Below the pieces are notes generated by a model. It had not been told where the DNA came from. It saw nothing but the letters and a program-made list of their open reading frames with translations, and ran no database searches. The translations under genes and the position numbers were made by a program. From positions 186,001-250,000 of the forward strand of contig VIIQ02000831.1 in NCBI GenBank assembly GCA_007449985.2: 64,000 nt of DNA, in the 5' to 3' direction. This document shows, one piece after another, positions 6-59,700 of the stretch (the first letter of the stretch is position 1; every line of letters begins with the position of its first letter). This stretch comes from Desmodesmus armatus. Its lineage: Eukaryota > Chlorophyta > Chlorophyceae > Sphaeropleales > Scenedesmaceae.

Positions 6-3000
6 GGCACTTTCAGTCTGACCACCACCCCTGCCCGCACCCGGCCTGCCTGGAGCGCAAGTTTGTGGTGTTTGCTGAGGAGCAGGATCTGCGGCGCCAC
101 TTCGCCACAGAGCACGGCAGTGAGATGAACATGTCGCGTGCACAGCGACGACAGGTGAGAGAGGGGGGCTGGATTGTGGGGGGTTGTGGGAGTATGTTTG
201 TGTGCACTGGACACTGATGGTGAGTGAAAGCCAAGCAATCTCGCCGCTCGATTCACACACACATGGGCTGGCATGTTGTCCTGCAGGCCATGTCTCACAA
301 CAGTCAGCTCATTAGAAAACCCCTACGCCCTGAACTGTGCAGGTTGTCTCAGTTGCCGCTTGATTCGTTCATACAAGTGCTGGCACGTTGTCCTGCAGGC
401 CATGTCTCATAACAATCAGGGCATTTGGCAACTTCACCGCCCTGAACCCTGCAAGTTGTCTCTCGCCGCTTGATTCATGCATATATGTGCTGGCACGTTG
501 TCATATGCGTGATGTCTCCTCAATTTCATGCGATTAGGACTCCCACAGCCCCTGCAAGCTCAGCTGATAGTATCACCATCACCGCGTAAATCATACCTGT
601 GCTGGCATGTTGTCTTGCAGGCCATGTCCCTCAACATCCAGCTGACATATTCCAGCAGGGAGGAGGAGGCAGCAGCAGCAGCCGCGGCAGCAGGGATGCA
701 CCGCCCCGGCGTGGTGATGGGCGGGGGCGCCGGTCTGCCCCGCAGCGGCAGGGGCGGACGGGGCGGCGGCATGCGGCACAGCCACTCTGAGGGGGCCATG
801 GCGCAGGCTGTGCAGGTGCGTTCAACCCAAGTTGGTTTGTGGTTGTTGTTTGGGGGGGGGGGGTAGGTACAGACTGTAGCTGCTTGTGGCAAGCATGCAC
901 TGACAGCTTCTATCGCACATGCTGACAGGCACGCACACATGGCGGCCCGGGGGGGGGGGGGGTAAATGGGTGTGTCAGGGTCGAGGAGGGTCTAGGAGGG
1001 TGATAGGCTGGTCTGTCGTGGCAGCGGTCGCAGCGGCAGGGGCGGAGGGGGTGAACTGTCTGTCGCAGCTCCTGACCACCGCATGGCTTTGCTGCAGGCA
1101 TGAATTTAAACCGTGTTCGCCGCTCTGTCCACAGCCAATTTTCAGGTGTGTGGTGGGACAGGCACAAGCAAGGGAATTGAGGAAAGGAAGTAACACAAAT
1201 ACCGCATTTGGTGTCTGTTGCGCTGCAGGCGAGTGTTGAGAGCAGCAGGGCTGAGGAGTTTGCCCGGGCTTCAGCAGCAGGCCCCAGCAGTGTGACCTTC
1301 TCTGCTGAGGACTTCCCCAGTGTCAGTGGGCAGGGCACGCAGGGCACAGCCCCCTTGGGCACATGGGTGGGAGCAGGGTCAGGGCCAGGTGAGTGTGGGA
1401 ACCAGTGTGGTAACTGCTGAGTGTGGCACAAGGCTGACATGCTTTGCATGTCACCATGCAAAGCAGCAGGCTCAAGCAAGCGGGGGCTGTCTGCCTCTGG
1501 AGAGGCGGGAGATCGCTGCAGTTAGTCACTGCTGATCAATTGATGACCTGAGGCTAGTCAGCCTTGCTGGCGCAACAAGCCTCTGCGTCCCCCTGTAGAG
1601 TGCCCTGCGACATCACACACTATTCAGGGGGTGAAGAGGGCGACTATCCACAGATTGCATTCCGACAACGGGGATGGAACATTTTGTCATCAAGTATCAC
1701 AAAGGTCAACCATGCTGAGTATCGCAAAGTCCGACCATGGTGTGTGTGGTCTGTCTGACTGGTGTCTCTGTGTATCCCGTGCTTTGCAGGTGGTTCCAGC
1801 CTGCGTCAGGAGGACTTCCCTGCCCTACCAACCGCCTCCAAGAACCAGCGGCGGCGGCAGCGTGAGAAGGATCGAACCCTGGCCGCCCGGCTTGGCGCAG
1901 CAGCAGCACCCATACGCGTGGTCAACAGAGCCAGCGCACCCACACCGGCAGAAGCAGCTGCAGCAGCAGCGGCTGGTGCAAGCAGCAGCAGGGCAGCCGC
2001 CGCGGCCGGCGGCGGCAGCAGCAGCAGCATCCGACACAGCCGGTCAGATGGGAACTTGCTGGTAGGAGGGGGTCATTTGTCAGCTTCTGGCTCTGCTGCT
2101 GCTTCAGATGTGGATGAAGATCTCGGCAGTGGGTTTGAGAGCGACAATGCACCAGCAGCAGCAGTTGAACAGGCAAGCAGCACCAGCCACTTCCCAGCAC
2201 TCCCAGGAGCAGGAGCAGCCGCAGCAGCAGTGACACAGGCACATCCCGCCTGGGTGCCGGTCCGCCGCTCGGGTCGGCCGCCAAAGCCGGGTCAGGGTGG
2301 CAGCAAGAGCAGCAGCAGCAGCACGGCCGCCGCACCTAACAGCATTGCAGACTTTCCCTCGCTTGCTGCCACCATCCCCGCCAGGGCGGCTGGCAAGGGT
2401 TCGGCAGGAGTGGGGTCCAACAAAGGCAAAGGCAGCAGCAGCAGGGGTGGCATCAGCATCCTTAACAGCAGCAGCAGCAGTGCGGCGCCGCCGGTGCAGA
2501 CTGTTGCTGAGGCTGTTGCTGCTGCTGGTGGGGTGTCAGAACAGCTGAAGGCTGCTAACAAGGCGCTGATTGAGCGCTGCAAGGCGGCGTTGAGTGAGGA
2601 GGGCTTCAGGGACTTCAGGGAGCGCTCTGCAGGGTTTATGCAGGGAAACCTCAGCCCAGGTGGGTTGCTTGGTGATGGTGTTGGTTGGCTGTCAATGGGT
2701 GTGCATTTGTGGGATTGTGGTTGGGTTGCTTGGGGAAGGGGGGAGGGCTTGGGGGAGGGGGAGGGAGGTGTTGTTCCAGGAAAGAAAGGGAAGGGTGGTG
2801 GGGTGTCTGAGCTGTTGAAGGCTGCTAGTAAGGCTCTGATCGAGCGCTGCAAGGTTGCGTCGAGTGAGGAGGGCTTTAGGGACTTTAGGGAGCGCTCTGC
2901 AGGGTTCATGCAGGGAAACCTCAGCCCAGGTGGGTTGCTTGGTGATGGTGTTGGTTGGCTGTCAATGTGCGTGCATCTGTAGGTTTGTGGTGGGGTTGCT

Positions 3001-5642
3001 TGGGGAAGGGGGGGGGCTTGGGGGAGGGGTGTTGTGCCAGGAGAGAGGGGGAAGGGTGGTGGGGTTTCTGAGCTGTTGAGCGCTGGTCGTCAGGCGCTGT
3101 CCGAGTGCTGCAAGGCTGCACTGGGGCCAGGAGGGTACTGAACTTGCAGGGAATGTTTTGCAGGGGGTATGCAGGGAAGGGTGGGCTGAGGTGGGCGGGT
3201 TGGAGTGGCGCACAATCGGGTGTTGCGCGGTGCTGGGGACGTGGGGAGCCGCAGGAAGGGGTGGCGGGCTTGTTGCGTCGTACAAATCTCCACTAGGACC
3301 CCAGAACATGGGCTGCGTCTGAGGGCTGCATGAGCTAGGATGGCTGTAGTAGTGGAGCTGCGCAAGTCATGGTTATGTGCACAGCAGTGTGCCCAGCGGT
3401 GCAAGTTTGTTCACTTTCACTTCTGTATCCTGGCATTGTCCTCGGCTGTTTTGCTCAAACGTCTTCCTGCTTGACGACGGGAACGCCTTTGAGCAGGATA
3501 GCAGGGGGCAGCGCCAGGGTGCAGAAGTGGACAGTGCATCAGCTGTCACTGCTGGACGCACTACTGCGTGATCACCGCTAACTGCACTGCTCAGCGTTGC
3601 GGCGTACACGACACACACCTATGCCTGTCCTTAGGTGCATGTATGCAAGTACATGTGCGCGTGCATGGCGTGATTGTGTTTGCATGCGCATGTGAGAGCT
3701 CTATCAGCAAAGGGGTGGTCAATGTGCGGGACCCTCACAGACATAAGCACATGTAATACATGTGCAAAACACTGCGACGCCCATACCTGCAGAGTGCGCT
3801 GTGCAGGGTGTTCAGCTGTGTGGTCTTGTGCACGTCACTGCTCCTGTACCCTGGCGTTGTCTTCTGCTGCTGAGCTTGAAGGTTTTATTGAAGCTCAGCA
3901 GGGAAACCTTGGAGCGCCCTAGCAGGGGACAGCGCAAGGGTGCACAGGAGACGTGTGTGGACAGGTAGCACAGCTGAACACTGCCGCAATGCATGCCGTG
4001 CTATGCACAGAAGTAGTTTGTCAACCCTGACCAACTCGGCAACACTGACTAACTCGTCCGGTCGCTTACTCATTCGCTCACTCACGTGCTCACTCACTCA
4101 CTCACTCACTCACGTGTGTCGCCGTTGCGTTCAACCCCGACGGGTGACCTCCCCCGCTCCCCCCCCCCCCCACATGGTAACACAGTGGCTTATTACACAA
4201 CATGTAGTGCAGCTGGGTGGGGCAGGGCAGGATAACATCAAAAGAGGCAGGGGGGGGGGGCATGGTTGTGCGTGACTGTGTATGCTGCAAATTTGCTGGA
4301 TATTTGTTTGGCTTTGTTTAATTCTGCACTAGACGGCCATAATGCTGGTGAGTTGGGTGTTTGCTGAACTTTTTGCTGCGTGTTGCATAGTGCAGCATTG
4401 CTATCTTGAAGCGTGTGGCACAGCAGTTTGTTGGGTGGCATGTTCTTGTGCAGCATGCTCATATGCACCCTGGTGCTCTCTCCTGCTGTTACATTCGAAG
4501 GTTTTGGCAATCTGAAAACGTTCAAGTGTAACAGCAGGGGACACCTCCAGGGTGCTTATGATATGCTGCACACAGTACGAGCCAACACTGCTGTGCCCTG
4601 TGTTTAGATCATAGTCACAGCCTGATTACATCAGCTGCCCTTTCTTAACCCACTTGCTCGCTCATTCAAATTGCCGTCTTGGTTCTCATCACTGCGTGCA
4701 CACTCCCCCCCCCCCCTTACTGACTCCGCAGCGGCGTATCACAAGCACGTGGTGCAGCTGGGTCTGCTGCAGCTGGTACCGCAGCTTGCAGCGCTGTGCC
4801 CGGACGCAGACAAGCGTACCGCCCTGGTGGCAGCCCACAAGCGGTACCTAGAGTCCGCACAGGACTCCCTGCAGGCGCCTGCAGGGGCTAACTCCAGGGG
4901 GTGGGTGCCTCCAGAAGCTGCCATGGCAGCCCTTGCGGAGGTTGAGCAGCAGGGGTCTTGGGCATGTGAGCGATGCACACTCGTCAATGCGCCCAGCAGC
5001 AGAAGCTGCGAGGTGTGCTCGGCTCCGAAACCCAAGGGAGGGGCAGCAGTCAGTGCTGCTGGTGGCAGCAGTGGCGGGAGCAGCAAAAAGGCGGCAGCAG
5101 CAAGCAGTGCGGCGCGCGCTGCTCCGGCGGCGCCTGTGGCTAGCAGCAGTTCTTGGTCGGCTGCGGCGGCGGCTGCCGGCAGCAGTGGTGGCAGCAGTGG
5201 CGGCAGCAGCAGAGGCACCCAGCAGCAGGCAGAGCCGCAACAGCAGCAGCAGCAGCAGCAGCAGGCACCCCCTTCTGCTGAGAGCTGGCCTGGCCTACCT
5301 GGCGGGAAAGGCAAGAAGGGTGGTAGCAAAGCAGCTGCATCCCAAGCAGCACCGCAGCAGCAGCAGGCAAGCAGCAGCAGCAGCCTGCCGCCAGAGCAGC
5401 AGCAGGCAGGGGGCAAGAAGAAGAAGGGTGGGAACAAGCAGGCGCTGTCGGAGTTGCTGGCCACTGGGAAGAGCCACCCGCAAAATGCGTGGAGCCAGCA
5501 GCAGCGGCTGAGTCAGCTAGCGGCGCCGTCTGGGGCAGGGGCAGCATGGGGCAGTGGGGCAAGAGTGGCGGGTCGAAGCTGGCGAAGAGCATCAATGCGT
5601 TCAATGATGCTTGGGGGGACAAGCAGTGAGACGGTGGTTTGA
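6..5642 (+). CDS. ZNF598: ZNF598/Hel2-type RING E3 ubiquitin ligase, 3' part
   Basis: Homologue of the ligase that ubiquitinates small-subunit ribosomal proteins on collided ribosomes in the cytosol. The RING end lies before the window. Coding exons read as 6-154, 621-815, 1229-1388, 1790-2659 and 4732-5642, and phases agree. Exon one has a C2H2-like finger (C..C, then H...H) with the family-typical CLERKFVVFAEEQDL stretch and RAQRRQ, continued by AMSLNIQLTY. Two EDFP motifs (EDFPSV, EDFPAL) and the helical NKALIERCKAAL...FRERSAGFMQG...AYHKHVVQLG tail match the Hel2 C-terminal module. A RanBP2-type finger (W-x-C-x2-C-x10-C-x2-C) lies at about 4957-5030 and is followed by low-complexity Ser/Gln/Lys. 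The family match is from memory. The last 25 codons may be frame-shifted (see findings). Confidence 0.85.
264..660 (+). repeat. Tandem copies of a splice acceptor and exon start
   Basis: A unit of about 111 bp repeats four times. The three upstream copies lie in the intron and the last is the real acceptor and exon start (exon begins 621). Copies 1 and 2 keep TTGTCCTGCAG followed by GCCATGTCTC (exon-like starts at 287 and 399). Copy 3 has lost its AG (around 510). The copies also share GCTGGCAYGTTGTC and the preceding CCGCT..GATTC stretch. Confidence 0.85.
2530..3135 (+). repeat. Tandem duplication of an exon end with its donor
   Basis: The last part of the fourth ZNF598 exon, with its donor CAG|GTGGGTTGC at 2659/2660, is repeated about 270 bp downstream with a second intact donor at 2929/2930. 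A third, decayed copy starts near 3055 and lacks a donor. A G-rich stretch separates the copies. The frame stays open through copy 2 up to a stop at 2980-2982. Confidence 0.9.
3421..4555 (+). repeat. Three related foldback elements in a ZNF598 intron
   Basis: Three diverged copies at about 3421-3526, 3845-3945 and 4465-4555 each start with a TRYCCTGGYG-like stretch and end with its inverted complement (AGGGTGC), giving imperfect hairpins with arms of about 30-40 bp. Loops and inner arms differ. They look like a small family of miniature foldback elements inside the 2-kb intron 2660-4731. Nothing coding was seen in them. Confidence 0.65.
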
Positions 5643-20138: not shown

Positions 20139-23100
20139 TCAAGCGGCCGCGGCCTCTGGGCTGATGAGTTTGTACTCTGCCATCTTCTGCCGTATCTCCC
20201 TGAACGCTGCTGCTGTTGCGCTGCTCTCCAGGTCATCCACCAGCTGGTTGATCAGCTGCTGCATGGGGCCGTCAATGGCGTCCATAGTGAGGGCAGCCAC
20301 CTTGGTCACTATATCACCAGCCTTGCCCTGAAGCTTGCTGGTCACCTGGACGGGGGGGGGGGGGGGGGGGGGGGGGCAGGGCAGGGGAGGGGACACGAGG
20401 GCGGGGGGGGGGGGGCAAGGAAAGCAATAGAGTGACTGCCTGTTGAGGGGCAAGGATGGGTTTGTGTGGGTAGTTGGGGTTGCTGCATGGGGCCGTCGAT
20501 GGCGTCCATGGTGAGGGCAGCCACCTTAGTCACTACGTCACCAGCCTTGCCCTGAAGCTTGCTGGTCACCTGAAAAGAAGGAAAGAATCCAGAGGGGGGG
20601 GTGTGGTGGTGGGGGGGAGTGGCAGTGGCGCAACAGGGTGTCATTGGGGTTCAGGCATGTAGTGTGGCAATCGGCGGCTTGGTGCTGATGGTGTGTACAC
20701 GTGCATTGATCTTGGTTGTCAACTTTGAAAGGGTGGGTGTGGTGGCTGCTAAGTCGCATGAGTAGAACTTGTACTGGAGCTGAAATTGGGGGTGTAACAC
20801 TTGCAAGCCAATGGCACCTTTGTTGCAGAACTGCCACAAACAGGGCTCATGCCTGCAACCCTTGGACCATCACACAGCAACAAACTCAAAGCAAACTGGC
20901 GAAGCGCCCTGCACACCTTGTCCATCCATGAGCTGATGCCCCTGCTGGTTTCCTGTGTGTCAACCTGCAGCAGCACAGCACACAGCACAGCACAGCACAG
21001 CACAGCATAGCATACAGCACACAGCACACAGCACGGCAAACACCACTGGTCATGCAAGCCTTCAATGCCACCTCAAGCTGAAGTCAGCTTCTTGCAGCTG
21101 ACAATCTCAGAGGCAGGCATGTTCTTGCCCTACATGGGCGGTCCACACCCTACAAGCTGCCCTAACGTCACACACACCACTGTCTACGACCAGTGTTATC
21201 AAGGCACCCAGGCTGCATTTGTTGTGTTGCTGCTGTTAGCACCCGCTGCTCTCTTGTTCAAGATGGTTCAGCAACCCTCAACCCCTTCTCCGAACAGCAG
21301 CAACCCTCATCCCCATCTCGTAAGAGGAGCATCATGTTGTCACTTACGACAGCCTCAGCGACAGTGTCTCCCGCCTTCTCCCCAACAATCTCCTGGAGGG
21401 ACTCCTGCAGGGCAGCTGGCACCAACTCCCACACCTGCAGTGGGGTGCATACAGCACAACAGTTTGGCACAGTGTGGTGCACTATCGTACAGTGCAGTAC
21501 ATATGCTGTACAGTGCGCTTCAGGGTGTCACACACTCACCCAAGTTGTTGCAGCAGAAAGACAGAAAGAGAAGGTATAATGAAGCAACAGCTGGAAACAT
21601 CATCAGGAGAACTGTCGAGCCAGAGCGTGTCGCAATGTGCTCTCGCCCAGCCCTTGCCATAAACTGCCAACATCGTACATGCACACTGCACACATCACAA
21701 GTTCCCTTGCATTCCGCAATCACGCCCACACCATCTCCGGCCAGGGAGTGCGCCCCCTTCTGCTCCCTTCAGACGATGCACCAGTGCAATACCCAGTCCA
21801 CAGCCCATCTGCAGAGCGGAAAACCCACTATAGTAGCTACCTGTCCTTGCCTCTCAACATCGCAGCCCCACCCCATCCTCCTCATCCCACCCCGCCATCC
21901 ATCATTCCCTGTTCCATCCCCGGCCCCGTGCCAACTCCCCCCTCTCACCTCTGTCTTCAGCTTTTCAAACAGGGGGTGCACCAGTGCCCTCGCATGCTCC
22001 TCAAATATGGGCAGCTGCCCATCCAGTCCAAACAGCCCACCAGCCAGGGCAGTCACTGCAGACAGGGCACTCTTACGCAGGCTCTTGCGCCCACTGCCGC
22101 CGACTGCTGCAGCACCTTCACCCTCCTCTCCTGCTGGGGCATCTGTGAGGTCCAGACTGCGTGACGCCTCCTCTGGAGCAACCTGTGAGCGTGTGTGTTT
22201 GGGGGGGGGGGGGGGGGAGGGGTTCAGGGAAGGGGGAGTTGATGGTAAGGCCAGACGGATACAGCAGACCCAAGACCAAGCGTGCTTTCAAAGGCTCTTG
22301 CGGCCACTACCGTAGAGTGGTGCTGCTGTAGTGTTATCACCACCCTCCTCAGGAGGCTCCTGCTGGGCCATCATCAACATCCACACTGTGTGAGGTCTGC
22401 TCTGGGGCAACTAGTGATCCCCCCCAGCCAAACACACACAGTCCTCACACCTGAAGCTGCTCCATCTCAGACACAGAGGCAGCACCCTGAGCCTCACCGC
22501 CTTCCTCAGCTGCAGCAGCCGCCCCCCCCCCCCCCCCCCCCCACCTCACCGACACCCCCCCCCCCCCGGTGTGTGTGGGGGGGGGGGGGGTATAACCTTA
22601 ATAGCTCCTACCTTGAACCCGGGGGGGGGGGGGGGGGGGTCGGGGGGAGATTATATCACTCCCGTCCTGATCTCCTCGTCCTCCCTGTCCAGAAACCCCC
22701 CCCCCACCCCGCAACACCACCCACCTCCTCCTCCACCTGCAGCTGCTCCATCTCAGCCACAGGCGCAGCCTCAACCTCTTCCCCCTTCACTCCCGCTCCA
22801 ATCTCCTCGTCCTCCCCGTCCAGCCATTCCCTCAGTTTGGCCATGATGGTCTCTGCTCCCCCAAACTGAGCTGTCCCCAACACACCATGAACCCCAATGG
22901 AAACCTCCCCCCCACGACCCCGTTCCAACGGACCCCCCCCCCACACACACACACGACCCCCCGTTGAGCTGGCAACACCCACCTCCTCTTCCACCTGCAG
23001 TTGGTCCATCTCAGCCACAGTGCAGCCTCAGCTCCTTCCCCCTTCACTCCCGCCCCAATCTGCTCATCTTCCCCGACCAGCCAGTCCCTCCACTTGGCCA

Positions 23101-26100
23101 TGGTGGTCTCTGATGGTGCGTACATCATCAACTCCTCCCCCTCCTCCCCCACCCCCCACAATAAACGCCCCCCCCCCCACCCCCCACCCCCCGGCCGCCG
23201 CACGGTCCTCCTCACCCTCCTTGACCTGCAGCTGCTCCATCTCAGCCACAGGTGCGCCTTCTTCAGGTGCAGCTCCTATTGGATATTCCTTCTACTGAAA
23301 TTTAGGCACATCAACCTTCACTCCTGCTCCAATCTCCTCATCATCTCCATCCAGCCAGTCCCTCAGCTTGGCCACTATGGTCTCTGATAGTTTGAATACA
23401 ACAGCTCCTCCCCCTGCCCCCCCCCCAACACACACACCCGCCCCCGCCGCCGCAACAACACCCACCTCCTCCTCCACCTGCAGTTGCTCCATCTCAGCCA
23501 CAGGTGCAGCAGCTCCTTCCTCCGCTGCTGCTGCCCCCTTCACTCCTGTACCAATTTCCTCATCATCTCCATCCAGCCAGTCTTTCAGTTTGGCCATGAT
23601 GGTCTCAGATGCGTTGCTGCTGAGGCCGTCTGTGGTGGTGATGATGCCTGGCTTGATCTGGGCCAACAGCTTCTCAACAAGCTCATCAGTGCTGTCACCT
23701 AGCACCTGTGTGTGGAGGGGAGGGGGGGGGAGGGGGGGGGGATAGGGGGGGGGGAGGGGGGAAGGGAGGGGGGGAGGGGGGAAGGGAGGGGGGGAGGGGG
23801 GGAGGGGGGAAGGGAGGGGGGGGCATATGGATGGTGAGTGTGTGTGGGGGGGGGGGGGGAGTGAGCCCCGATATACCTGTGGACTATACAAGTACTACTC
23901 TCTGATGTGTTGGCTGCTGAGGCTATTGGTGGTGGTGATGATGCCAGGCTTGATCTGAGCCAACAGCTTCTCAACAAGCTCATCAGTGCTGTCACCTAGG
24001 ACCTGTGAGGTGGGAGGGTGTGGGGGGGGGGGGGGGGGGGGGGGCAGGAAAAGGGGGGGGAGGGGGCCATTGAGTAAGCCCACAACTTAGCTGTGGAAGA
24101 TACAAGTACTACTTATGAATTGTGTCCGACAGGTCAAGGCCAAAAGCTTCCCAAGAAGCTCGTCCGTGCTGTCACCCAGGACCTGTGAGGTGGGAGGAGG
24201 GGGGGGGGGGGGAGAGCATGGTGAGTGTGCGGGGAGGGGGCAGGAAGCCAAGCCGTACAACTCCAAGGTTGGTTGTGCACAGCACAGATACTGCCCCATC
24301 GTAAACTATGCCTTGAGAGAGGTTGAGGCCGACAGCTTTGCAACGAGCTCATCAGTGCTGTCACATAAGACCTGTGGGGTGGGTTTGAGGGGGAAAAGGG
24401 GGAGCATGCATGCTGTGTGTGTGGTGTGTGTGTGTGTTGGGGGGGGGGGGGGGAGAGGAGAGGGCTGGGGGGGGGGGGGGGGGGGGGGCATGTCTGGTGG
24501 TGGGTGGCCGGGAAAGGGAAACGGGAGGCAGGGAGACAAAGTAGAACAGCCCCCAAAGTGGACTGTGATCAGCCAAACATGCGGGAGAAGCCCGTACAAC
24601 TCCTGGCCCTATTTCAAACCCGCTGTCATCACTGTGCAGCAATGCATGCACGCCTTGCTTGCTCACACTGTAACTGTAGGGGTTAACTAAAAATAATAAT
24701 AAATGATTAATAATAAAATTAATAATAATAATAATTAAAACAACCACTGCAGGGTTGCCTCCCACTGGGACAACTGAGTCCACTCAGCCACCTGGATGAG
24801 AAGGAATCATGCAGAGGACAACCCCACGGTATCAAACAGCGGCTGGGGGAGGGGGGTGTACGGCTGTGCCACTGTGCTTGGTGTCTTGCAACACCAAGCC
24901 TCTGCCCCTCGTGCACCAGTCACCGTTGACTGAGCAACCCCCCAAACCTCTTCACACATGATGACAAACCACCTGTGCCCTTTTCAACTACCCTTTTCCA
25001 CCAGCGCTTTGTAACATGCGAGTGGTTGCTTTGCCTCTGCTGAAAGTACATGTTGTACTGACAGTGACACATGGCCACCTTGCTTGTACACACTGTAGGG
25101 GTCAACCACTGCAGGGTTGCCTCTCATTGGGGCTGCGGGGTCCCTGAGCTCCAACGAGAAGGAACCAAGCAGAGGCCAACCCACGGTGTTCAAACAATGG
25201 CTGCAGGGGTGTGTAGACAGAGGGAGTGCATCCAGCCAATGCATGAACCATCCAAGGATGTGACATTGTGTGTGTGGGGGGGGGGTACGTGGCTGTGGCT
25301 GAGCAGCTGTGCAACTGTGCTGTGTGTCTTGCAACTCCATGCCTCTGTCCCTTGTGCATCAGTCACCCTTGACAGAGACAACCCCCAAATCCCCCTCACC
25401 CTTGATGACAAAGCACCTGTACCCTTTCCAACTCCGATTGCTTTGTCACGTGCCAGTGGTTGCCCTTTCTTCTGCTGATAGCACCGTGCTATCAGCAAAA
25501 CAAAGGGCAACCACTGGCATGTTACAAAGCAATCGTTGTTGGAAAGGATACAGGTGCTTTGTCTGTGACAGCACGCAAAAATCAGTTTACTGACAGTGAC
25601 ATCACTGTCGATATATCACTATCGATGCATGGGCACCTTGCTTGCATATTCATAGTATGCTACACAAGTAATCCCTGTGCCTAACACACTGTAGGGATCA
25701 ACCACTGCAGGGTTGCCTCTCATTGGGACTGCTGTGTCCAGAAGCACCCAAAAGAAGGAACCATCCAGAGTTCAACCTAGGGTGTCCAAGCAGTGGCAGC
25801 AAGTGTGTGTGTAGGCGGGGGGGGGGGGGTACGTGTCCCTGACTGTGCAGCTGTGCAACTGTGCTTTGGGTCTTTGCAGCACCGTGCCTCTGCCCCTGTT
25901 CCATCAGTCACCCTTGACTGAGCAGACCCACACCTCCTCACAACTGATGTCAAAACCATCTGTACCCTTTCAAACAACCAGCGCTTTGTAACATGCGAGT
26001 GGTTGCATTCCCTCTGCTGGAAGCTCAGGTTGTACTGACAGTGACGCATGGGCACCTTGCAAGTACACACACACAGTACGGGTTGACCACTGCAGGGTTG

Positions 26101-29100
26101 CCTCTCATTGGGACTGCCGAGTCAATGAAAGCCCCAATGAGAAGGAACTATGCAGAGGTCAACCCACGGTGTCCAAGCAGTGGCTGCGGGTGTGTCGACA
26201 GATGGATGTAGTAGTTTGAGTTGTGCTGTTGTGTCTTTCATGTCACAGCCCTAAACCCCACAACAGCATCTGTGTGTGCATGTAGGCTGTGCCTGCATTG
26301 CAACATTGTCCGGTGTTTGGGATTAACACGGTCCAGCTCAGTCGATAGACGTGGTCTCCTGAGTCTTCAGTCTCGAGTCGTTTCTGTGGTTGGTTTCAGT
26401 GAGAAGATCGTCAGGTGGCTGCTTCTCGCGTAGCGGTCAAGGACAGCGTCCCTTTCTTGCAATTTTGTACCCCTCGCTTGTCAAACTATATGGTGGAGTC
26501 GGAGGGCATGCTGTCCTAGAGGCAGCACCCTAGCGGTCTCTCACTCCTAGCCCCTTCAGCTAGTCACTCCCAGACCCTCCTGCAGCATGGTCCGAATTCT
26601 GCCTTACGGATTCGGTCGTTTCGTGGAGGTGGATGAGCAGTTTCTCACGCAAGGCAGCCAGTCACGGCAGTTGCAGCATGCTGAGGCAGAGCGTGCTGCA
26701 GCACAGGAACAGGCCAGTCAGCTGCAGCGGCAGCTGGAGCTTTCTGAGCAGCGGGCCCAGCAGCTGGAGCAGCTACTGCAGCAGGCAGAGTCACAGCAGG
26801 ATCAGCTGTCCGCAGAGGCCCACCAGTGGTATGAGCTGTCCAAGCTGTTGCAGGACCGGCTTCAGCAGCAGTCACTTGGACAGGAGCAGCAACTCTAGCA
26901 GGAGGTCACCAAGCTGCAGCAGCAGCTTGAGCACTCCAACAGTCGGTCTGAACAGCTGGAGCAGCAGCTACAGTGTTCCCAGCAGAAGCTTCAATGCGCG
27001 GAGCAGCAGGCCCAACAGCAGCAGTTACAGTACAACCAGCGGGAGCGCTTGCAGCTTCAAGAGCAGCAGGACCAGTGTATCCAGCTCCAGTTCCAGGTCA
27101 TTCAGCTGCAAACCCAGGTCATCCAGGTACAGTCGCAGCTGGAGCAGACCCAACAGCAGTCTCAACAGCAGCAGTGTCGCTTACAGGACCAGCTAGAGGC
27201 TACCCAGCAGTCTGTCCAGCCCTTGCAGCAACAGGTCCGTCAGCTACAGCAGGACCTGCAGTTGTCTCAACACCAGTTGCATGAGGCAGCTTCCATGCAC
27301 GACCAGTTGACTGCAGAGGTGCAGCACTGGTACGGCAAAGCTTGCAGCAGCCAAGCCGAGCTGCGGCAGGTGCAGCAGCAGCACGACAGCATGGCTGCTG
27401 AGCTGCAGCTGTGGCGGCAGTGGGCTGCCCAGCAACAGCAGCTAGATGCCCCGCAGCAGTTTGACAGTCAGGAGGCTGGCACACCCCCTGGGTACCCGCC
27501 TCTTGCTGCCCCTAGTGCCAGCAGCGTCTCTGCTGCTGCCTTCTCCAGCAGCAGTGGCAACAGCAGCCCTGTCACAGCTTTCCCTTCTGGCAGCAACAGC
27601 CCGGTCAGCCTTGCCCCCAGCGGCAACGGTGGCTGGCAGGATGATGCCTTTGACGACACACGCAGCAGTGTGTTGCCGTTGGTGGTTGCTCCTGTGGGTG
27701 GTTCTGGTGACTTCACACTTGTCCCCTCCCCGTCTGTTTCTTGGTTGGCCCTTGCATCAGGTGGTTTTTCTGGCGCATTTGTGTTTGGTGGCTACGCATC
27801 TGCAGCTCCGCAGGTTCGCAGCCGAGTCGGTCTTCCCTTCTCAGCAGCAGCAGCAGCAGCTCAGCCAGTGCAGCTCCCTGAGCGCACTGCTGGTGGCTTA
27901 GACCAGGTGCCCTGGTCTAGGTCAGTTGGAGGCCCCGGTCCCCCGTAGTGCGTTTTTTTTTCCTGGCAGCAGCGCGCAGCTGGTGTGTGCTCTAGCGGCA
28001 CACTTGTCTGGTTTGGTTGGTAAGTGCTTTGAGTGCCAGCACTGCCCTGGGTTGCCCTGTGGTGGTAACAATTCACACCACTACATTATGTAGTAGTTTG
28101 AGTTGTGCTGTTGTGTCTTTCATGTCACAGCCCTAAACCCCACAACAGCATCTGTGTGTGCATGTAGGCTGTGCCTGCATTGCAACATTGTCCGGTGTTC
28201 GCAGATGGTTTTGCACATGATGTTGTCTGTCTCAGGATCCCCTCCCAGATGGTTGTTGTGCCTTGCTTTTGGGTGCTGTGCTCTGCTTTTGGGCAAGACT
28301 TGACACGTTTGTAGGTGCTGGCTGGACACAGGTGCCCTACTCATGTTAGCGGCAAGTTCAGTAGAACCTCTTCGTGTGTACTGTGCTCGCTTTTCATTTG
28401 TGCTTGTGTGCTGTGCATACGTTCAGGCCAAGGTCCCTTGCCGGCTATTTACGCTTGGGCACACGGGTGCTCTCTTCTGTTGTGATTTGTGGTGTTTTTC
28501 GCAGTGTCGGCTGGTGTCTCTTCTGCATTGCCCACTTGGTGTGGTGTACTATGTTCCGGGCACCCCTGTGGCCTTGCAGATGCTTGTGGGGGTGTGTTGG
28601 CAGGGTGGGTGCAAGTTGTGTGTGGCTGGTGGGGTTGTGTGTGTTGGGATATTGCTTCCTTCAATTTTTTCTGCAGTGGTGCAGTCAGGAGGATTTGAGG
28701 CGGGTACTGTCCTTCCGCTCTTCCTGCTCTGGGGGGGTAGGAGGCGTAGCCACGCAGTTGTCGAGCAGGCTGAGCGTTAGTCCAGCAGTTGGGGACTGAC
28801 GTGTGTAGAGATGTGTGAGACTGCAGTGAGAATGCAGTGATCAGCCTGTTGTGGTGAAGTGGACACTACATTCTATCAGGGTGTCAGGTTCAGTGAGTGG
28901 AGTAGGAGACGCTATACTGTAGCAGAGTGTCGTGATGAGAGTGAGAAAGGAGTTGAATCAGTTGTACAGCCTGCATGACGCGTGTGTCAGTGTGTCTGGT
29001 TACAGCGGATGTCGATGAGGTCATAACAGTAAGGATACTCGGTTCCTGTGACTACAGCACTCACTGAGATATGTGATGTGTAGTGTTGTGCAAGTGAAGC

Positions 29101-30810
29101 AATGGCGAGGAAAATACATGGTAACAATTCACACCACTACATGGAGTACTTGAATACATGCAAGCTCACTAAGACTGTCCTACTAGATAGGCAAGCAACA
29201 GTGACGTAATCCCTCAGTGTGTGTGTTGGGGGGGGGGGTACGTGGTGACACTGAGCCCTTTTTTGTACCGTGGTGTCTGGGACGCAGCCCCTCAAACAAG
29301 ATCCACCCAATGGATGTTGCAGGCTTAGGCCTTGAACTGCCAAACACACCTCATCCCTTCAACAGCATTCCACATTCACCCCTGCCTCCCCTGTACTCCC
29401 CACCTCCGTCTGCACCCACTGCCTCTACAAATCCCGTACCAATGTACAGTACTGTCTCCCCCACCACCCCACCCCAGCCGACCCGTCTGCCCCAGGGCAC
29501 ATGCCTCCGTCCCTCCAAGCAGGACCGACACCCCACCCACGCTCCCTGCACCACCCCATCAAACCCCTGCAACCTTCCTGGCCCATTCCATACACCCCTC
29601 CCCTTCTCCTTCCCCCTCCCCATGCTTCCCTTTCCCCCACCCACCCACCCACCCAACCCCGCCCACCCCCCCCCCTTCCCTCCCCATCTCCTCCCTCGTC
29701 CCCCCCCCCCTCACACACCCCCCCCCTACCTTGTGCACTATCCAGGCCACAGTGGAGCTCTCAGTCCTGGCCTTGAGTCCATCCTCACACTGACGGGGGA
29801 TGGCCTGGGAGGGCACACAGCCAGGACAGGGGCAGCAGCAGAACAGAAGAGGGGGTGGGGGTGCGGGTTGGTCAGTCAGTACAGTGCCAGTTTGACTCAC
29901 ACATTATGAGCAGTGGAGCTCTCAGTCCTGGCCTTGAGCCCATCCTCACACTGACGGGGGATGGCCTGGGAGGACACACAGCCAGGACAGGGGCAGCAGC
30001 AGAACAGAAGAGGGGGTGGTGGGTTGGTCAGTCAGTACAGTGCCTTTATGATTTCTACATTATGAGCAGTGGCTCTCAGTCTTGGCCATCCTCACACTGA
30101 CGGGGGATGGCCTGGGAGGACACACAGCCAGGAAGGGAACAGCAGCCAAAGGGGGGGGTCTTCAGCCAGTGTACGTCATCACAACTCTTGCATGTTGAGC
30201 AGTGTACAGCAGTCAAAAGTTCGTGATGCATAGCTGAGTCAAGAGCAACCTTGGCCAGAAGCTGAGCTGCAGGTGTGTGCAGTTTCACCCTCCCCATCAA
30301 ACCACACACAGTGGATGACTTGCTAACACCATAGCTGGTCGACCAATCAAGGGAAGGGTGTCTGGGGGGACAGAGTTGGCCATGAGTCATACATCCATGT
30401 TTGCTGCCCGTGCTGTGTTTGGTCGTTTGCACTTTGTAAATGCGTAACGGACCCCGTCTGCCAATGACATCCACTTGATGATTGAGAAAGATGTAGTTGC
30501 TTCACCAGCTGTTGCCACCACGGCAATGCTGCTATGCACTAGTGTGTCCGTGTATCCATGCACCTACCCATGCAGCTATTACCACTGATACTGCCAGTAT
30601 CAGTGCCAGTGGCTCATGCAGCAATGCAACAATGCAGCAATGCAGCAGACCCACCTCCAATGTGCTGTCCCTGAAACCATCCACCCGGGTGTCAATGACA
30701 CTGTGCACTTTGGGGTGCAGCGTCTCTACCAGCAGATCGACCGCCTTGTCCTGCGCCTTATCTACGTAACCTTCGACCGATTCCTTCCACTGGCTCAGTT
30801 TGGCCATCAT
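20139..30810 (-). CDS. Unrecognised amphipathic-helix protein, multi-exon
   Basis: Not recognised. Seven exons were read on the minus strand, all in phase 0: 30810-30655, 29804-29730, 23705-23466 (or ending 23478), 22182-21949, 21434-21348, 20964-20917 and 20345-20139, about 348 residues. The first exon starts MMAKLSQWKESVEGYV and continues as charged amphipathic helix. Exon 3 has DELVEKLLAQIKPGI and AKLKDWLDGDDEEIG; exon 4 GLFGLDGQLPIFEEHAR; exon 5 ALQESLQEIVGEKAGD; the last exon KLQGKAGDIVTKVAALTMDA and a helical end. There is no signal peptide, membrane segment or catalytic motif. Long helices suggest a structural or lipid/membrane-associated protein, which is only a guess. Most introns contain damaged copies of the neighbouring exon ends, so some exon choices could be wrong and further exons may exist. 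Confidence 0.6.
20470..20569 (-). repeat. Decayed copy of the last-exon start
   Basis: On the minus strand an acceptor (TTTTCAG) is followed by a near-identical copy of the first 75 bp of the last exon (encoding KLQGKAGDVVTKVAALTMDA), then the sequence diverges. It lies 224 bp upstream of the real exon in transcript order. Confidence 0.85.
22290..24371 (-). repeat. Array of decayed exon-junction copies around exon 3
   Basis: In transcript order there are three copies of the exon-3 acceptor and start (from 24371, 24182 and 24002; GTCYTRKGTGACAGCACTGA-type sequence, two ending in early stops). Then comes the best copy, 23705. It is followed by four downstream copies of the exon end (AKL..WLDG.DEEIG.GVK and AEMEQLQ with a donor) at about 23390-23230, 23125-22990, 22860-22730 and 22470-22440. 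A decayed copy of the exon-4 start lies at about 22410-22290. C-rich or G-rich runs separate the copies. Confidence 0.85.
24680..24740. repeat. AT-rich AAT microsatellite
   Basis: About 60 bp of AATAATAAT-type sequence in otherwise GC-rich DNA, at the left edge of the tandem repeat block. Confidence 0.85.
24741..26206 (+). repeat. Four-unit tandem repeat block
   Basis: Units begin with CACTGCAGGGTTGCCTC at 24745, 25107, 25703 and 26088. Shared parts include GAGAAGGAAC..., CCACGGTGT, a GTGTG-T-GACAGAGGGAGT stretch, a G-run with TACGTG, GCGCTTTGTAACATGCGAGTG and TTGTACTGACAGTGAC. Unit 2 is longer because of the foldback. Unit 4 is split by the insertion that starts at 26207 and resumes at 29142. 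Related sequence recurs at 58855-58920 and 59400-59525. Confidence 0.85.
25407..25563. repeat. Long foldback, arms about 78 bp
   Basis: A nearly perfect inverted repeat centred on base 25485. The arms pair from 25407-25484 to 25563-25486 with a handful of mismatches; the inner 12 bp (TGCTGATAGCAC) pair exactly and the loop is one base. It is an inverted duplication of part of a tandem-repeat unit. If transcribed it would form a long hairpin RNA. Confidence 0.9.
26207..28085 (+). mobile_element. Transposon-like insertion, copy 1, with coiled-coil ORF
   Basis: Starts TGTAGTAGTTTGAGTTGT and ends ACAATTCACACCACTACA, an imperfect terminal inverted repeat of about 18 bp. The first 111 bp and last 22 bp are identical to those of the adjacent copy 28089-29141, while the middles differ. 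Copy 1 and copy 2 together are flanked by TGGA (26203-26206 and 29142-29145), a likely 4-bp target-site duplication. No transposase or reverse transcriptase was seen, so it is non-autonomous. TG...CA ends would also suit an LTR-type element. Confidence 0.7.
26587..27948 (+). pseudogene. Gln-rich coiled-coil ORF inside the insertion
   Basis: One frame of about 453 codons from ATG 26587, interrupted only by TAG at 26896-26898, where neighbouring codons suggest an original CAG. The N-terminal two thirds are heptad-rich Gln/Leu/Glu coiled coil (QLQRQLELSEQRAQQLEQLL and similar). The C-terminal third is Ser/Pro/Gly-rich and lacks Cys-His zinc knuckles. Gag-like or a captured host coiled-coil gene are both possible; no function is assigned. 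Confidence 0.6.
28089..29141 (+). mobile_element. Transposon-like insertion, copy 2
   Basis: Separated from copy 1 by TTA only. It has the same 111-bp head and 22-bp tail as copy 1, with an unrelated, T/G-rich middle that holds no convincing gene. It may be a deletion or capture derivative of the same family, or a solo LTR. Confidence 0.65.
29730..30125 (-). repeat. Tandem copies of exon 2 in the minus-strand gene
   Basis: In transcript order two decayed copies (exon-like starts at 30111 and 29965) precede the real exon (29804-29730). All share CAG|GCCATCCCCCGTCAGTG, encoding AIPRQCEDG. Only the last copy runs to a good donor (AAG|GTAGGG). Spacing is 146 and 161 bp. Confidence 0.85.
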
Positions 30811-31845: not shown

Positions 31846-32543
31846 AAAGATACACTACCAATGCCAAGGTGGTGACCAGTACATGCATAGTCACAGGCTG
31901 TACAGTACTTGGCCGCCAAGTGGCTGTGTGCGGCTTGGACCTGGCATGTGAATTGCACCTGCCGGTTGGACTGCCGTCCATCGGCTCAGTTGCGCGCAGC
32001 CGTTGATGTTTGTTGCGTCATCAAGCAGTACAATGGCTGCAGCCACTGCAGTGCGCCAGCTGGCGCTGCTTGTTGCTGGCAGCCTGTTGATACCTTGAAT
32101 GTGCATATGGCCACATTGCCTATAGCAACCAGACTGCAAAAGGCTGGCATCTCTGCTTGCTTGTGCATCTTTGGCCACACTGAGTGTGTATTCATTGTTT
32201 GTCCAAGGCGCACCGTGTGCCACGGTTGCGGCATTCAGCCTACCTGCACAGCCTGGGTGTTGGGAGCCTCACATCCAAGGATGCTGGAGCAGGCGCTCTG
32301 TGACTTGCCTTCACCACTGTATTTGTTGCAATGCCAACTGCTCCCGCCTCAAGGTACAGTCCTGGCATATTTCTGGGTGCAGTCGTGTTTTCGCCAAACG
32401 TTCGGCTGGGTCGGACGGGGCCGGCCCGTTGGCTGAACCACATGCGGAACGGTATGATCGGTAAAAAACTTGTTTTGCCGCAGAAAGTCTCTAAAAAAGT
32501 CCCCAACGGCTGTGCAAGTAGCCGTTCCAGCCACATGACTTAT

Positions 32544-32576
32544 ACCTTCACCTGACCTTGAATGTCAGGTGAAGGT
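32544..32576. repeat. Hairpin, 13-bp perfect arms
   Basis: ACCTTCACCTGAC and its reverse complement with a 7-base loop. The matching place in the right copy (about 40855-40875) keeps only one arm. Confidence 0.9.
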
Positions 32577-33116
32577 TGCAGCTGAACGAGGCTGTTGACA
32601 ACGCCAGTTGAACGCCAAAAAAAAACCAGTCGAACCCCTGCTGGCCCCTATTTAGTTTTTTACTCGACAAAAGTATACTACAGCAATATTTGCTCAACGT
32701 CAGCAGCACAGTCTGCCAGGAGAACATTCTCCAGCCCTTCCTGTAGCCGTGTAGGCCCCTACTGCACACCAGAGCACGCCCCTGACTGCACATTGCAGCG
32801 GAAGCAGTCAAGCTACGGGCATCCAACTGCAATAGTGAAGGCAAACAGCAGAGGGCGACTGAACCCCATCAAGTTTGAATCCAAGGCCCTCAGCACGCTG
32901 CTCGCTTTGCAGGTGGGCTGAATGGCGCCATGATGGCACACGCGTGTGCCTTGGACAATCATGTGCACACACACTATGGCCATACTTGCACATCCAACGA
33001 AGGGCAGGCTGTCTGCAAGACGCAGCACCAGTGCAATGGTTGCCACCGTGTCGATCTGCTCCCGCCAACTCTGCATGAATGTACATCTGTCGCAGGATCT
33101 CTGGTCGGAGTTCACG

Positions 33117-35238
33117 ATGACGAGTGAAGACCCACCTATGTCCTTGGTGGAACTGCCAACCTCCGGCGCACTGTCCTTCTTAGACCTGCCAGACACCTGC
33201 CTGCTGGGGGTGCTGCAGTGCTTGGCAGCTGATGGTCAGCGCAGCTTGTTCAGTGCTGCCAGGGCGCACAGCAAGCTGTACCAGGTCACAACAGCCGTGA
33301 CAGCGCTGCGCAGCATATCAGCAAAGCTAAAGACACCGCAGCAGGTGGACAGCATGTTGGTGTACCTGCACAGGCATGCTGGGCACATTGACAGCATCGA
33401 TGTGACTGGTGAACTCAGCAATGGGAGAAGAGTCAGTCTGCGGCAACTGCCCCCCAACCTGCACCTGACCAGCCTGCAGCTCAACAGGGTGCATGTGCAG
33501 TTGCAGCCAGGGGGAGGCTTCCCAGGCGTGCTTCAGTCATTGGCATCCCTCAAGCAGCTGCGGCTGGACAGCTGCAGGCTGCTTGATACTGTCATTCCGC
33601 CACTGCAGCAGCTGCCTGCTGGGCTGGAGCACCTCGGAATCATCATGCTGCGCATCAGAATGCAGCCTGAGCACAGGCAGGTGCGATTTCCTGTTACAGC
33701 GCTGCACCAGCTCCAGTCCCTTACCTTCCTTGAGTTGGATGCTGTGCCGCTAGAGGGCCTGGGTGAAGATGGCCACCCCCTGCAGCCCCTGCAGCCCCTC
33801 ACACGGCTCCTTGACCTCCGCCTCGGCCCACCAAGTTCCAACACGTCGACGTTCCCTGCCGGCCTGGTGTCAGGTGCACATCAGCTGACACGCCTAGACG
33901 TGTCGAGTCACTGGCAATGGAATGCAGCCCAAGGTGTTGCACCACTGCTGCCTGGCTGGCAGCCTGTTGTGGCAGCGCCGCACTTCAACGCAGCAGGATT
34001 GATGGCGCCATATACGCGGGGCCGGCGTTGGCAGGCAGACCATTGGTGGCAGGGCGTCCAGCCAGGCCGTGCTGTCCTTGCCGGCATGACGCAGCTGCAG
34101 CACCTGTGCCTCTATAGCTTATACGGTGCACAGCTGCTGGCAGACCTTACACACCTCCAACAGCTGACACACTTGGAGTTGGAGGGCAGCTTTGGTGCTG
34201 ACGAGAGAAACCTTCCATCCGCTGTTGCCTTCTCACCCTTGACAGCCAGCAGCAAGCTGCAGCGCCTTAGAATTGGCGCCTGCACACTGCCGGCAGGTGT
34301 TTGGCAGCATGTGTTCCCTGCTGACAGGCAGCTGCCACACCTGCGGGAGTTGCATTTGTCGTGTACCAATCATTCATCAGGTTGTGCCCCCCCAGCGCCT
34401 GAAGGCAGCCTCCTAGTGAGCTGCTGCCCTGGCCTGCACCAGCTGCATATGGGCTACCTCCAGCACAGCACAGCACAGCTGGCCATGCTGCAGGGGCTGA
34501 GTCAGCTGCACACTCTGGGGCTGAGTGGCGATCCCTGGGATGATGATCATGCCTTCACAGACGAGATAGTGCAGGCGGTGTGTCAACTGACCCAGCTGCA
34601 GGAGCTGAGGATGGATGGCATTTGCACAGCCGGGGAGGGTGTGCTACAGCAGCTGACACAGCTGAAGCAGCTTACCTACCTGGACTTTCCAGGCATGCGG
34701 ATTTACAGGAGCCAATCAGGGGCTGCTGTTCATAATGATGAGGTGAGCACAAATCCAACTTGACAGAGCTGAACTTCAGCAGGTAGTTGCTTGACCATCT
34801 GCTGTGTCTGGCAAGTGGTTACATCACAATTCAACCTGATAGCCTCACTACAGGAACAGGAAAGATTCCGTTAAGATTGCCAGCCTGCAGCAGCAATACG
34901 CATATTGCCGCTGTACACCGCCGCATTTTCCGGGAAGCATGCATGTGTCTGCACTCAATGTCAAGCTGCCAAGCCTGGTTTTTTGTTTGTGCTGCCAAGC
35001 CTGGGTTCGCAACATTAGTGAGTTATGCACTTGGTGCCGCGGGTGGGACATCCCAGTTGCTCTAGAGATCTCCCAGAGTGTCCCATAGCAAGTCCATGCC
35101 TTGACTCAGGGTTCATGCTGTGGCTTGCAGGACGGTGATGCTGAGTCCCAGCCTGTGTGGCGCCAGCTGCAGCGCCTGCATCTTGACCACAGCGACCCTG
35201 AAACGGCTGAGTGGGTGGCCACAGCTGTGGCAGAGTGA
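33117..35238 (+). CDS. F-box/leucine-rich-repeat protein A
   Basis: Probable substrate-recognition subunit of an SCF-type ubiquitin ligase or a related LRR protein. Exons 33117-34742 and 35131-35238 fit in phase (577 residues). An F-box-like helix set (LSFLDLPDTCLLGVLQCL ... LFSAARAHSKLYQ) is near residues 18-60. It is followed by about 12 LRRs of the form LxxLxxLxLxxx (for example SLASLKQLRLDSCRLLD, LTHLQQLTHLELEGSF). The frame is open upstream to about 32946, but the upstream part is repeat-like and an acceptor (GTCGCAG) precedes 33095, so ATG 33117 was chosen. The target is unknown. A second, close copy lies at 41449-42879. Confidence 0.8.
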
Positions 35239-39402: not shown

Positions 39403-39630
<228 letters not shown>

Positions 39631-56789: not shown

Positions 56790-59700
56790 ATGGCCACGCC
56801 ATCAGCCTCCGAGCTGCCTAAGCTGTACCATGGGGTACAGAAGGTCTCCTTCGGCTACAAGATGCTGGCCACGATGGGTTGGCAGGAGGGACAGGGCCTG
56901 GTAAGACACAGAGCTGCACACCAGCCAGCTAGCTGACAGGGAGGGGACTTTTATACCACAAGGAGGGTGCTGTTTGTGGGGCTCGTCCGAAAAGCTTTTA
57001 AATCAGCACAAGCGCCTGGCTGTCTGTGCAGGGTGCCAACAACCAAGGCATCAAGGAGCACATCAAGGTCAAGAAGAAGCAGGATGCATTCGGTGTCGGC
57101 GCGGTGAGCTCATGCTGGCAGGAAGCTGTTACAGCAGTCACTTTTGGTTAGCATATGTTCTTTTAGCAGCTGGAGCCATACAGTAATTGTACAGACAATG
57201 GGGAAGCAACCAGTGACCCAGGCCACCAAGCGGTCTGCAGTGACCGTGGGCTGGGAGCGAACTCGCAACAGACTAACCTTGAGCATCAGGTTACAGCAGT
57301 CGCTGCAACAGTCACACTGCCTGCCTCATTTAGTGATCCCCCCCTTAGACAAGGCTCTTACCATCAGTCTAATCACACCGAAAGTAGACAAACAAATCCG
57401 TGCGGCATATGTTTGTGTGCAGAAAGCCCTGATACATTTGTATATGGGTGCTGCCAAGGCCGCTGCTTGTTGTGTGTCAGTGCCTCATGTGGACAATAGT
57501 GCTGATGACGGTGCACCTCTTCCAAAAGCACTGACCTTACTGTCGCTGCTGATGCTGTGATGATGCTATGCAGGCTGAGCAGGCCCACAAGTTGCGTGAC
57601 TGGACCACCGGTATGGTGGGCTATGACGCAATCCTATCGGGACTCAAGGAGATCACCCGTGACACTGCTGCCGGCGGCAGCAGCAGTGACGCCGACGACG
57701 GCAGCAGCAGCGGTCACTCCTCAGGCTACGACAGCGACAGTGACACCTCGAGTGACGCCGCTGCTGCTGCGCGCAAAGCTGCTGCCAAAAAGAAGCAGAA
57801 AAAGAAGCAGGAAAAAAGGGACACCAGCAAGCAACAGCAGGAAGGAAAGGGTAAGGACAGCACCAGCAAGAAGAAGAAGCGCAAGCAGCAGCAGGAAGAG
57901 GAGGAGGCAGCAGCAGCAGCAGCAGCAGCGAAGCGTAGGAAGCGCAGCAAGAAAGCTGCAAGCAGCAGCAGCAGCAGCGGCTCAGACGACTCCTCCAGCA
58001 GCAGTAGTGACTCCGACTCTGACAGTGAGCCAGCAGCAGCAGCGGCCGCTGCTGCAGGCGGCAGCGGCATCGCTGCTCTCAGCAATGTGTCACGCGTGAA
58101 GGCTGCAACGCATGTGGGCCGCTACCAAAAGCGCGAGCGCGCCAAAACTGTCAGGAACTACTCTGCTTCTGACCTGGCGGCTATCCTAGGCCTCCCTAGC
58201 AGTGCCCCGGTGGTGGAGGGCGGCGAGGGAGCAGACGCCTGGGCGGCAGCAGCAGCGGCGGCGGCTGGCCCTGGCAGCAATGGCAGCAGTGGCAGCAGTG
58301 ACGGCGGCAGCAGCAGCGGTAGTGACAGCGACAGCGATAGTGACAGCAAGGAGGCAAGTGAGCAGCGGTTGCGGCCGGGTACCCCCCCGGTTCAGACACC
58401 CCTCCTAGCAGGTCTCTGCTTGGTGCAGATGCCGGTGGTGCTGGTGGTGGTGAGGATGGTGATGGGGTACAGGCAGCAGCAGCAGCTGGGGGTGGCAAGC
58501 CGTCCTGGTGGAGCAGCATGTTTGTGAAGTCTGGTGGCAGTGGCAGCAGCATTGGTATGCAGCAGGTCCGGCCTAAGGCCATCAATGCACATGGCTTCTT
58601 GGAGGATGACCAGACCAACCTGTACATGCAGGTGGGGGGGGGGGTGTTTGGGGGACGGGGGGGGGGGGAGAGGGGTATATAGAGGGCCATATTTGCAAGG
58701 GGTAGTGGGGGTGCAAGTGGTTGTTGGAGTGTGGGGGGGGGGGGGGTGAGAAGGAGTTGGGAAGGTGGTGTTGGGGTTGTGCAGGGGTCAGCAGGCCAAC
58801 CTGTACATGCAGGTGGGTGGGTGTGTGTGTGTGGGGGGGGGGGGGGGCTGGTGTGTGTGTCAGCAGAGGGAGTGCATGTACAATCCATGCATGCTCACCA
58901 AGATATGGCCTACTGGGACAGTCAAACCAGGCAAAACTACTGAGGATTGCATCCGTGACGGTTGAAGCAGAAGAGCAGGTTGCGGGGAGGGGGGTAAGGC
59001 TTTTATGTGCAAGCGGTAGGGGGGGTGCAAGGGGTAGTGGGGGTGTGAGGGGGGGGGGGAGAGGGAGTTGGGACGGTGGTCTTGGGGTTGTGGAGGGGTC
59101 AGCAGGCCAACTTGTGCATGCAGTTGGGTGGGTTGTGGGTGTCAGCAAAGGGACCCATGCATGCTTACAGGGATCCGTCCTACGTGGGTGTGGGTGTGGG
59201 GGGGGGGGGGGGGGGCTTCATGTGCTAGGGGTAGTGGGGGTGCGCAAGGGGTAGTAGGGGGTGTGCGGGGGGGGGGGGGGGGGGGGGAGGGCAACTTATG
59301 CATGGAGGTGGGTCGGTGTGTTGACGAATGGCCTGCACGCGAGTGCTGCAGAGGCAATCGCACTAGGCGCATGATTCCCACTAGGCGCACAATGATAGGC
59401 CCACTGGGACAGCCACGTGTGTGTCGACAGAGGGAGTACTTGGATACATGCAAGCTCACTAAGACTGTCCTACTAGATGTGTGTGCGTGTGGTGGTGGGG
59501 GGTTGGGGGAGGGGGGGGGGGCATGGTACTGCCACCACGGGCAAGGTCTGCTTGCATTTCCGTTTGCCTGCTTGCCTTCTGGCTTTAACTGACTGCTTGC
59601 CTGCCTGCCACTGTCTTGCCACTGCCTGTCCCTTCCCCACTCCCACAGGCTCATGCTACTGCCACAACCGGCAAGCAGGGTTTGGGTCGCTCCTCTATGC

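Follow-up and report, generated by a model that had tools for sequence, protein, structure and literature searches.

Repetition of exon sequence beside the original exon is familiar from tandem exon duplication and from mutually exclusive exons. The copies described here differ from both in that each includes a single exon edge only, and roughly one in four has a frame shift or a stop. Internal tandem genomic duplication across exon–intron boundaries is also a known kind of event (Gao & Lynch, 2009, as cited in the available parts of PMC4974935 and PMC3443670). As these excerpts portray it, such duplication is direct, local and within a gene, and carries exon sequence together with existing splice signals, all of which apply here; in the potato RdRp case, as outlined there, an upstream intron–exon structure was duplicated. 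Unlike internal tandem duplication as these excerpts present it, the events considered here enlarge an existing intron, with no new intron or exon according to the gene models, and give serial copies (up to five per junction) at several junctions of one gene. Intron creation by tandem duplication, as far as the accessible text describes it, likewise provides spare GT and AG sites and leaves the protein unchanged; there, however, an exonic segment is duplicated and a new intron arises from the spare sites, whereas here the spare sites lie within an old intron and are presumably unused. Introners, in the available part of PMC9860276, likewise add intron sequence in several genes, but in the present case each junction has its own local copies, which form no dispersed family. 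An earlier note on this DNA, which knew of no named class for such introns, was thus half right: tandem duplication across exon–intron boundaries is covered by the excerpts of PMC4974935 and PMC3443670, but the events here are serial, involve multiple junctions and make existing introns grow. Serial junction copies that lengthen introns at several junctions of one gene did not appear among the titles and opening abstract lines of the open-licence papers searched.

The sample consisted of 264 kb of the Desmodesmus armatus assembly (115.8 Mb in 831 contigs), comprising the window, by which we mean the whole 64 kb stretch analyzed, and 100 kb from each of two other contigs (C618 and C9). It contains no N and has a GC content of 57%, a value also given, together with a long mean intron of 462 nt, for Tetradesmus obliquus in the available part of PMC5966456. 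The consensus splice sites are CAG/GTGAGT for donors and TGCAG/G for acceptors (slashes mark the boundaries), and both these and the GC content resemble those of chlorophytes. A home-made HMM gene finder trained on the same 264 kb predicted 63 genes and 281 introns, and the curated set contains 53 genes (CDS of at least 300 nt) and 257 introns; the ZNF598 and histidyl-tRNA synthetase (HARS) models extend into a neighboring gene, so that gene counts are approximate.

The minus-strand gene from 30810 to 20139 consists of seven exons, each in phase 0, whose spliced reading frame encodes 348 amino acids with no internal stops. Five similar proteins were identified in a large protein database (7,996 candidates scored), three of which are near-full-length, share 47–69% identity, are colinear with the model and lack the repeated segment. 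The donor of exon 3 is ambiguous by 12 nt, being placed after LQVEEE (LQVEEE/V) in the model and after LQ (LQ/V) as suggested by the homologues. The only Pfam match of the protein, to DUF445, is below threshold. In the whole genome the protein has ten matches, all at its own locus (all 15 candidates scored), where some exons match repeatedly owing to the junction copies.

Table 1. Exons and junction copies of the 348-amino-acid gene, and arrays in two other genes of the window. Percentages are those of the copy against its true exon.
Feature	Position	Strand	Basis or remark
Exon 1	30655..30810	-	Gene model, colinear with homologues P0001-P0003
Exon 2	29730..29804	-	Gene model and homologues
Exon 3	23466..23705	-	Gene model and homologues; donor possibly 12 nt earlier
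Exon 4	21949..22182	-	Gene model and homologues
Exon 5	21348..21434	-	Gene model; no copies in scan
Exon 6	20917..20964	-	Gene model; no copies in scan
Exon 7 with stop	20139..20345	-	Gene model and homologues
Exon 2 acceptor and exon start, decoy copy	29911..30005	-	98.2% over exon part
Exon 2 acceptor and exon start, second decoy copy	30067..30146	-	97.8%; net frame shift
Exon 3 acceptor and start, decoy copy	23899..24041	-	91.3%; net frame shift
Exon 3 acceptor and start, decoy copy	24138..24212	-	84.4%
Exon 3 acceptor and start, decoy copy	24327..24393	-	84.4%
Exon 3 end, copy	23189..23388	-	86.2%; donor lost; stop in straight reading
Exon 3 end and intact donor, copy	22943..23115	-	85.0%; net frame shift
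Exon 3 end and intact donor, copy	22697..22853	-	87.6%; gapped, yet open in straight reading
Exon 3 end, fourth short copy	22442..22484	-	88.1%; alignment without exon edge
Exon 4 start, heavily decayed copy	22292..22417	-	78.8%; AG lost
Exon 7 acceptor and start, decoy copy	20481..20572	-	94.4%
ZNF598 gene, acceptor and exon-start copies 258-309 and 369-414; true exon from 621	258..620	+	Edge alignment
ZNF598 gene, exon end and donor (2659), copies 2796-2967 and 3057-3178	2526..3178	+	Edge alignment; PAH_ZNF598 domain
G-patch gene, exon end and donor (58631), scored copy 58792-58847	58611..59278	+	Edge alignment; G-patch domain

Alignment of the exon edges to the adjoining introns gave two, three, one and one acceptor copies for exons 2, 3, 4 and 7, respectively, that of exon 4 being badly decayed, and four copies of the end and donor of exon 3 downstream of it (Table 1). 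This agrees with the earlier note, which had described damaged acceptor copies ahead of the same four exons and about four copies of the exon 3 end with its donor. Exons 5 and 6 have no copies in this edge-versus-intron scan. The copies sit within one modelled intron per position, the single intron being judged from the homologues. The exon 2 array, which is the youngest, has a fixed period of 161 nt and its intron parts are homologous; a CACTG microhomology can be read by eye at the breakpoint. Of the four exon 3 donor copies, three reach 145, 146 and 141 nt into the exon. Such a similar reach, seen in several multi-copy arrays, is what amplification of a single event would produce. In the exon 7 copy, four of five differences fall at third codon positions and the intron side has no recognizable homology.

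Several other repeats are present in and around this gene. The 6 kb intron 2 contains a repeat array away from the junctions (24741–26206) with a near-palindrome at 25407–25563, and a 112 nt perfect direct repeat (26206–26317 and 28088–28199) flanking a plus-strand CAG-rich open stretch; the pair and the stretch may represent a nested gene or an inserted element bounded by its termini. Two short dispersed intronic repeats (25209–25286 of the window and L021:8227–8317) each occur in more than 30 places in the genome. Elsewhere in the window, a tandem gene duplication at 32496–46017 is preserved as two blocks (32496–34516 versus 40818–42797, 78%; 37137–38896 versus 44314–46017, 85%), and there are a near-perfect (CAGCAC)n repeat of 236 nt (35680–35915) and a perfect (CA)112 microsatellite (39406–39629).

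The same pattern was reported by the earlier note for the ZNF598 and G-patch genes, and edge alignment recovers it in both, with two acceptor and two donor copies in ZNF598 and one scored donor copy in the G-patch gene, in which two further donor copies near 59100 and 59300 were seen by eye. It is also not limited to the window, as arrays occur in HARS (3′ part read) and COG4 on contig C618 and in an ABC transporter gene on contig C9. The HARS model minus its copies aligns end to end with a cytoplasmic histidyl-tRNA ligase of known structure (5w6m). In all, curation yielded 25 arrays (16 acceptor and nine donor) with 45 copies on three contigs, and as many as five copies were found per junction. 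The five copies of COG4 exon 7 reach 18, 83, 28, 20 and 30 nt into the exon, an inequality that independent duplications or subsequent losses would produce. Inside HARS intron 4, about 11 nt from the donor, lies a dispersed repeat of ∼130 nt (L017:1685–1816) with 39 other places among the best 40 of 551 candidates.

Arrays were found in 21 of 257 introns and seven of 53 genes, which are lower bounds because the curated scan covered ten preselected genes, the others being covered by other scans only; three of the ten (c9-20, c9-8 and c618-2) had no copies in the curated scan. The process proposed by the earlier note as general in this genome therefore recurs outside the window, but in a limited fraction of introns and genes. 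Copies in all genes can be rejected, since two families tested with profiles gave no confirmed case: a coarse search with Cpn60_TCP1 (72 matches) and tRNA-synt_1 (38 matches) revealed no confirmed internal copy when judged on pairs of matches overlapping by at least 20 positions rather than ∼10. Only two such pairs were present, both from Cpn60_TCP1, and by eye neither stretch contains an internal copy. The affected introns are concentrated in few genes, seven compared with 15.9 (s.d. 1.6) expected from a random draw.

Chance similarity does not account for the copies. Across 270 HMM-predicted introns, direct matches of at least 40 bits to the gene's own exons involve four upstream and 13 downstream exons, compared with ∼0.02 for random exon–intron pairing, and 17 such matches are direct versus one inverted. 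The copies are thus local and direct, as in internal tandem duplication within genes. Introner-like dispersal was rejected, since the 348-amino-acid protein and the COG4 exons match their own loci only (all 38 COG4 candidates scored) and 11 of 13 HARS protein matches are at the HARS locus (all 17 candidates scored). The other two HARS matches are a 32-residue stretch on contig C116 (260823–260918) that is 75% identical to the exon 3–4 region, either a gene fragment or a paralogue, and a HARS-like match with 35% identity on contig C376.

For 21 of 42 copies, and for 12 of the 23 with high identity, the intron flank is homologous in that it outscores every one of 120 null pairs. Copies with a like exon part and an unlike intron part, and the frequent C/G runs in arrayed introns (see below), are features that an assembly artifact could share, in which diverged haplotypes or errors had been stitched together at exon edges; we regard this as very improbable, given arrays of up to five copies, homologous intron parts with a fixed period as in exon 2, an unbroken sequence across all 264 kb and independent changes in single copies.

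The position of the copies was evaluated using 29 local repeat clusters (at least 50 bits, copies no more than 3 kb apart), of which 19 span junctions, six are intronic, none is exon-internal and four are intergenic; random placement gives 11.4, 5.7, 4.0 and 7.8, respectively. If exon-internal clusters are taken to be purged, 46% would be expected to span junctions (p = 0.025 for 19/29). Two of the six intronic clusters fail the overlap rule by less than 1 nt, and counting them in gives 21/29 (p = 0.003), a leniency denied to the random placements. A tandem duplication strands an exon fragment in an intron only if it spans a junction, so that the anchoring is partly geometric; in good part it is predicted by geometry and purifying selection. 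A duplication hot spot at junctions is possible. The junction anchoring described by the earlier note is not supported as a separate process, since random placement already yields 11.4 junction-spanning clusters. Indeed, we consider it an evenly balanced question whether the arrays merely reflect general local tandem duplication, with junctions standing out through geometry, purifying selection and the longer recognizability of exon-bearing copies. Local direct copies cover 4% of random intron points and 5% of intergenic points, and in uncurated models they cover mid-exon points (7–8 of 169) about as they cover intron points (17–19 of 456), which speaks against junction specificity. With exon-internal clusters again taken to be purged, the 21/29 count gives p = 0.11 under an assumed 1.75-fold longer visibility of exon-bearing copies. 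Without that assumed factor the departure from random placement stands at the p values given above, the lower of them for the lenient count, and the strong clustering by gene is not what general duplication would lead one to expect.

The earlier note described the copies as decayed, and their differences from the true exons bear this out. These differences number 67, 63 and 182 at first, second and third codon positions (16, 16 and 49 in single-copy arrays). In multi-copy arrays, changes unique to one copy number 32, 27 and 49 and exon-side changes two, four and 15; nonsynonymous changes are therefore on the copy side with few on the exon side, which indicates that the copies drift while the exons are constrained. 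A gap not divisible by three occurs in 14 of 45 copies; a net shift, or a stop in straight reading, affects 12 of the 45 and spares the other 33.

The splice sites carried by the copies are nearly as good as the genuine ones. Decoy acceptors score 5.0 compared with 5.1 for true acceptors and 0.8 for random intronic AG, and decoy donors score 7.4 compared with 7.9 for true donors and −1.0 for random intronic GT. Splice dinucleotides are retained at 38 of 42 edges, where neutral drift predicts 36.3, so that selection preserving the decoys is not needed. Selection for a function of the copies, whether as alternative exons or as regulatory decoy sites, is improbable in our estimation: the strength of the decoys and the surplus of third-position changes (see below) would suit it, but each copy found reaches just one exon edge, the homologues lack the segments, and neither the neutral-like retention nor the shifts and stops, despite the 33 copies free of them, favor a role as cassette exons.

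Not all of the divergence follows from drift. Copy drift, together with silent change in the exons at the same rate, accounts for 2 × 62 third-position differences, whereas 182 are observed, about 1.5 times as many and an excess of ∼58; changes unique to one copy likewise number 49 at third positions compared with 31 expected. The share of third positions is heterogeneous among copies (p = 0.04; p = 0.012 using one copy per array), reaching 10/10 in the COG4 exon 15 copy, 5/5 in the ABC exon 4 donor copy and 14/18 in the HARS exon 6 copy, in which the intron flank is homologous. This excess does not fit the tandem-duplication account. The 11 of 23 high-identity copies without a recognizably homologous adjoining intron are also not predicted by simple tandem duplication. 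Both observations would be explained if, for some copies, unequal exchange with a diverged allele or a hybrid partner was the source rather than duplication on the same chromosome, since such copies would at birth be alike in exon edge and splice site, different in intron and distinguished mostly by synonymous changes. We nevertheless hold this origin to be rather unlikely, though less so than selection on the copies. The third-position share in flank-homologous copies (33/52) is not significantly lower than in other high-identity copies (38/49; Fisher p = 0.13), a further complete locus for HARS or COG4 did not appear in the assembly among all 17 and all 38 candidates scored, respectively, and C- and G-rich flanks may merely slip from alignment.

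The claim of the earlier note that the copies lengthen introns holds: the 21 affected introns have a median length of 696 nt, which falls to 347 nt with the arrays removed, compared with 319 nt for all introns. The arrays, each taken as the distance between the true edge and the most remote copy, with any insertions between copies counted in (such as the ∼130 nt repeat of HARS intron 4), amount to 8,177 of 107,657 intron nucleotides. Runs of C or G of at least 8 nt are present in 14 of 21 arrayed introns versus 23 of 236 others; if a run must lie no more than 150 nt from either end of the intron, the counts are 12 of 21 versus 19 of 236. Across all sampled introns, the density of G runs (at least 6 nt) is 1.84 per kb over the initial 60 nt and 0.07 per kb over the final 60 nt, while that of C runs (at least 6 nt) is 0.15 and 1.25 per kb, respectively. 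Introns therefore start G-rich and end C-rich, which places the runs beside junctions. The runs may be a trigger of duplication or a product multiplied by the arrays, and the seven of 21 arrayed introns without them argue against a causal role.

Taken together, we think it likely that these introns have grown by serial tandem duplication of stretches across their splice junctions, and that such events are tolerated since the decoys can be passed over in splicing. Direct local copies and their decay, near-full-length homologues without copies, longer introns, the lack of exon-internal clusters, clustering by gene and the association with C/G runs all support serial duplication. Under this model, stretches spanning a junction, mostly of 70–300 nt, would be duplicated repeatedly, possibly where C/G runs stall replication or microhomology drives template switching. 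Each event would leave one complete junction on the rest of the exon, the last copy for acceptors and the first for donors, and the partial copies would be stranded within the intron and then drift. With decoys as strong by score as the true sites, the cell is faced with a choice between several good ones; it presumably makes it by pairing an acceptor with a donor across its own exon. If splicing in this species pairs the intact exon's own sites in this way (exon definition), the decoys would be skipped and the duplications tolerated. A stronger reading, which we advance tentatively and as clearly less probable than serial duplication itself, is that junctions flanked by C/G runs are duplication hot spots, partly fed by a diverged second allele. 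They would then provide a separate route of intron lengthening, with introns built from stranded copies of their own junctions and full-strength decoys in essential genes, an arrangement workable only by exon definition.

The lengthening of introns is usually ascribed to transposons and drift, whereas here 7.6% of the sampled intron sequence lies in arrays of junction copies, which extend to basic genes such as HARS. Each array offers a natural experiment in how a splice site is selected, since near-identical donors or acceptors stand in a row and one must win.
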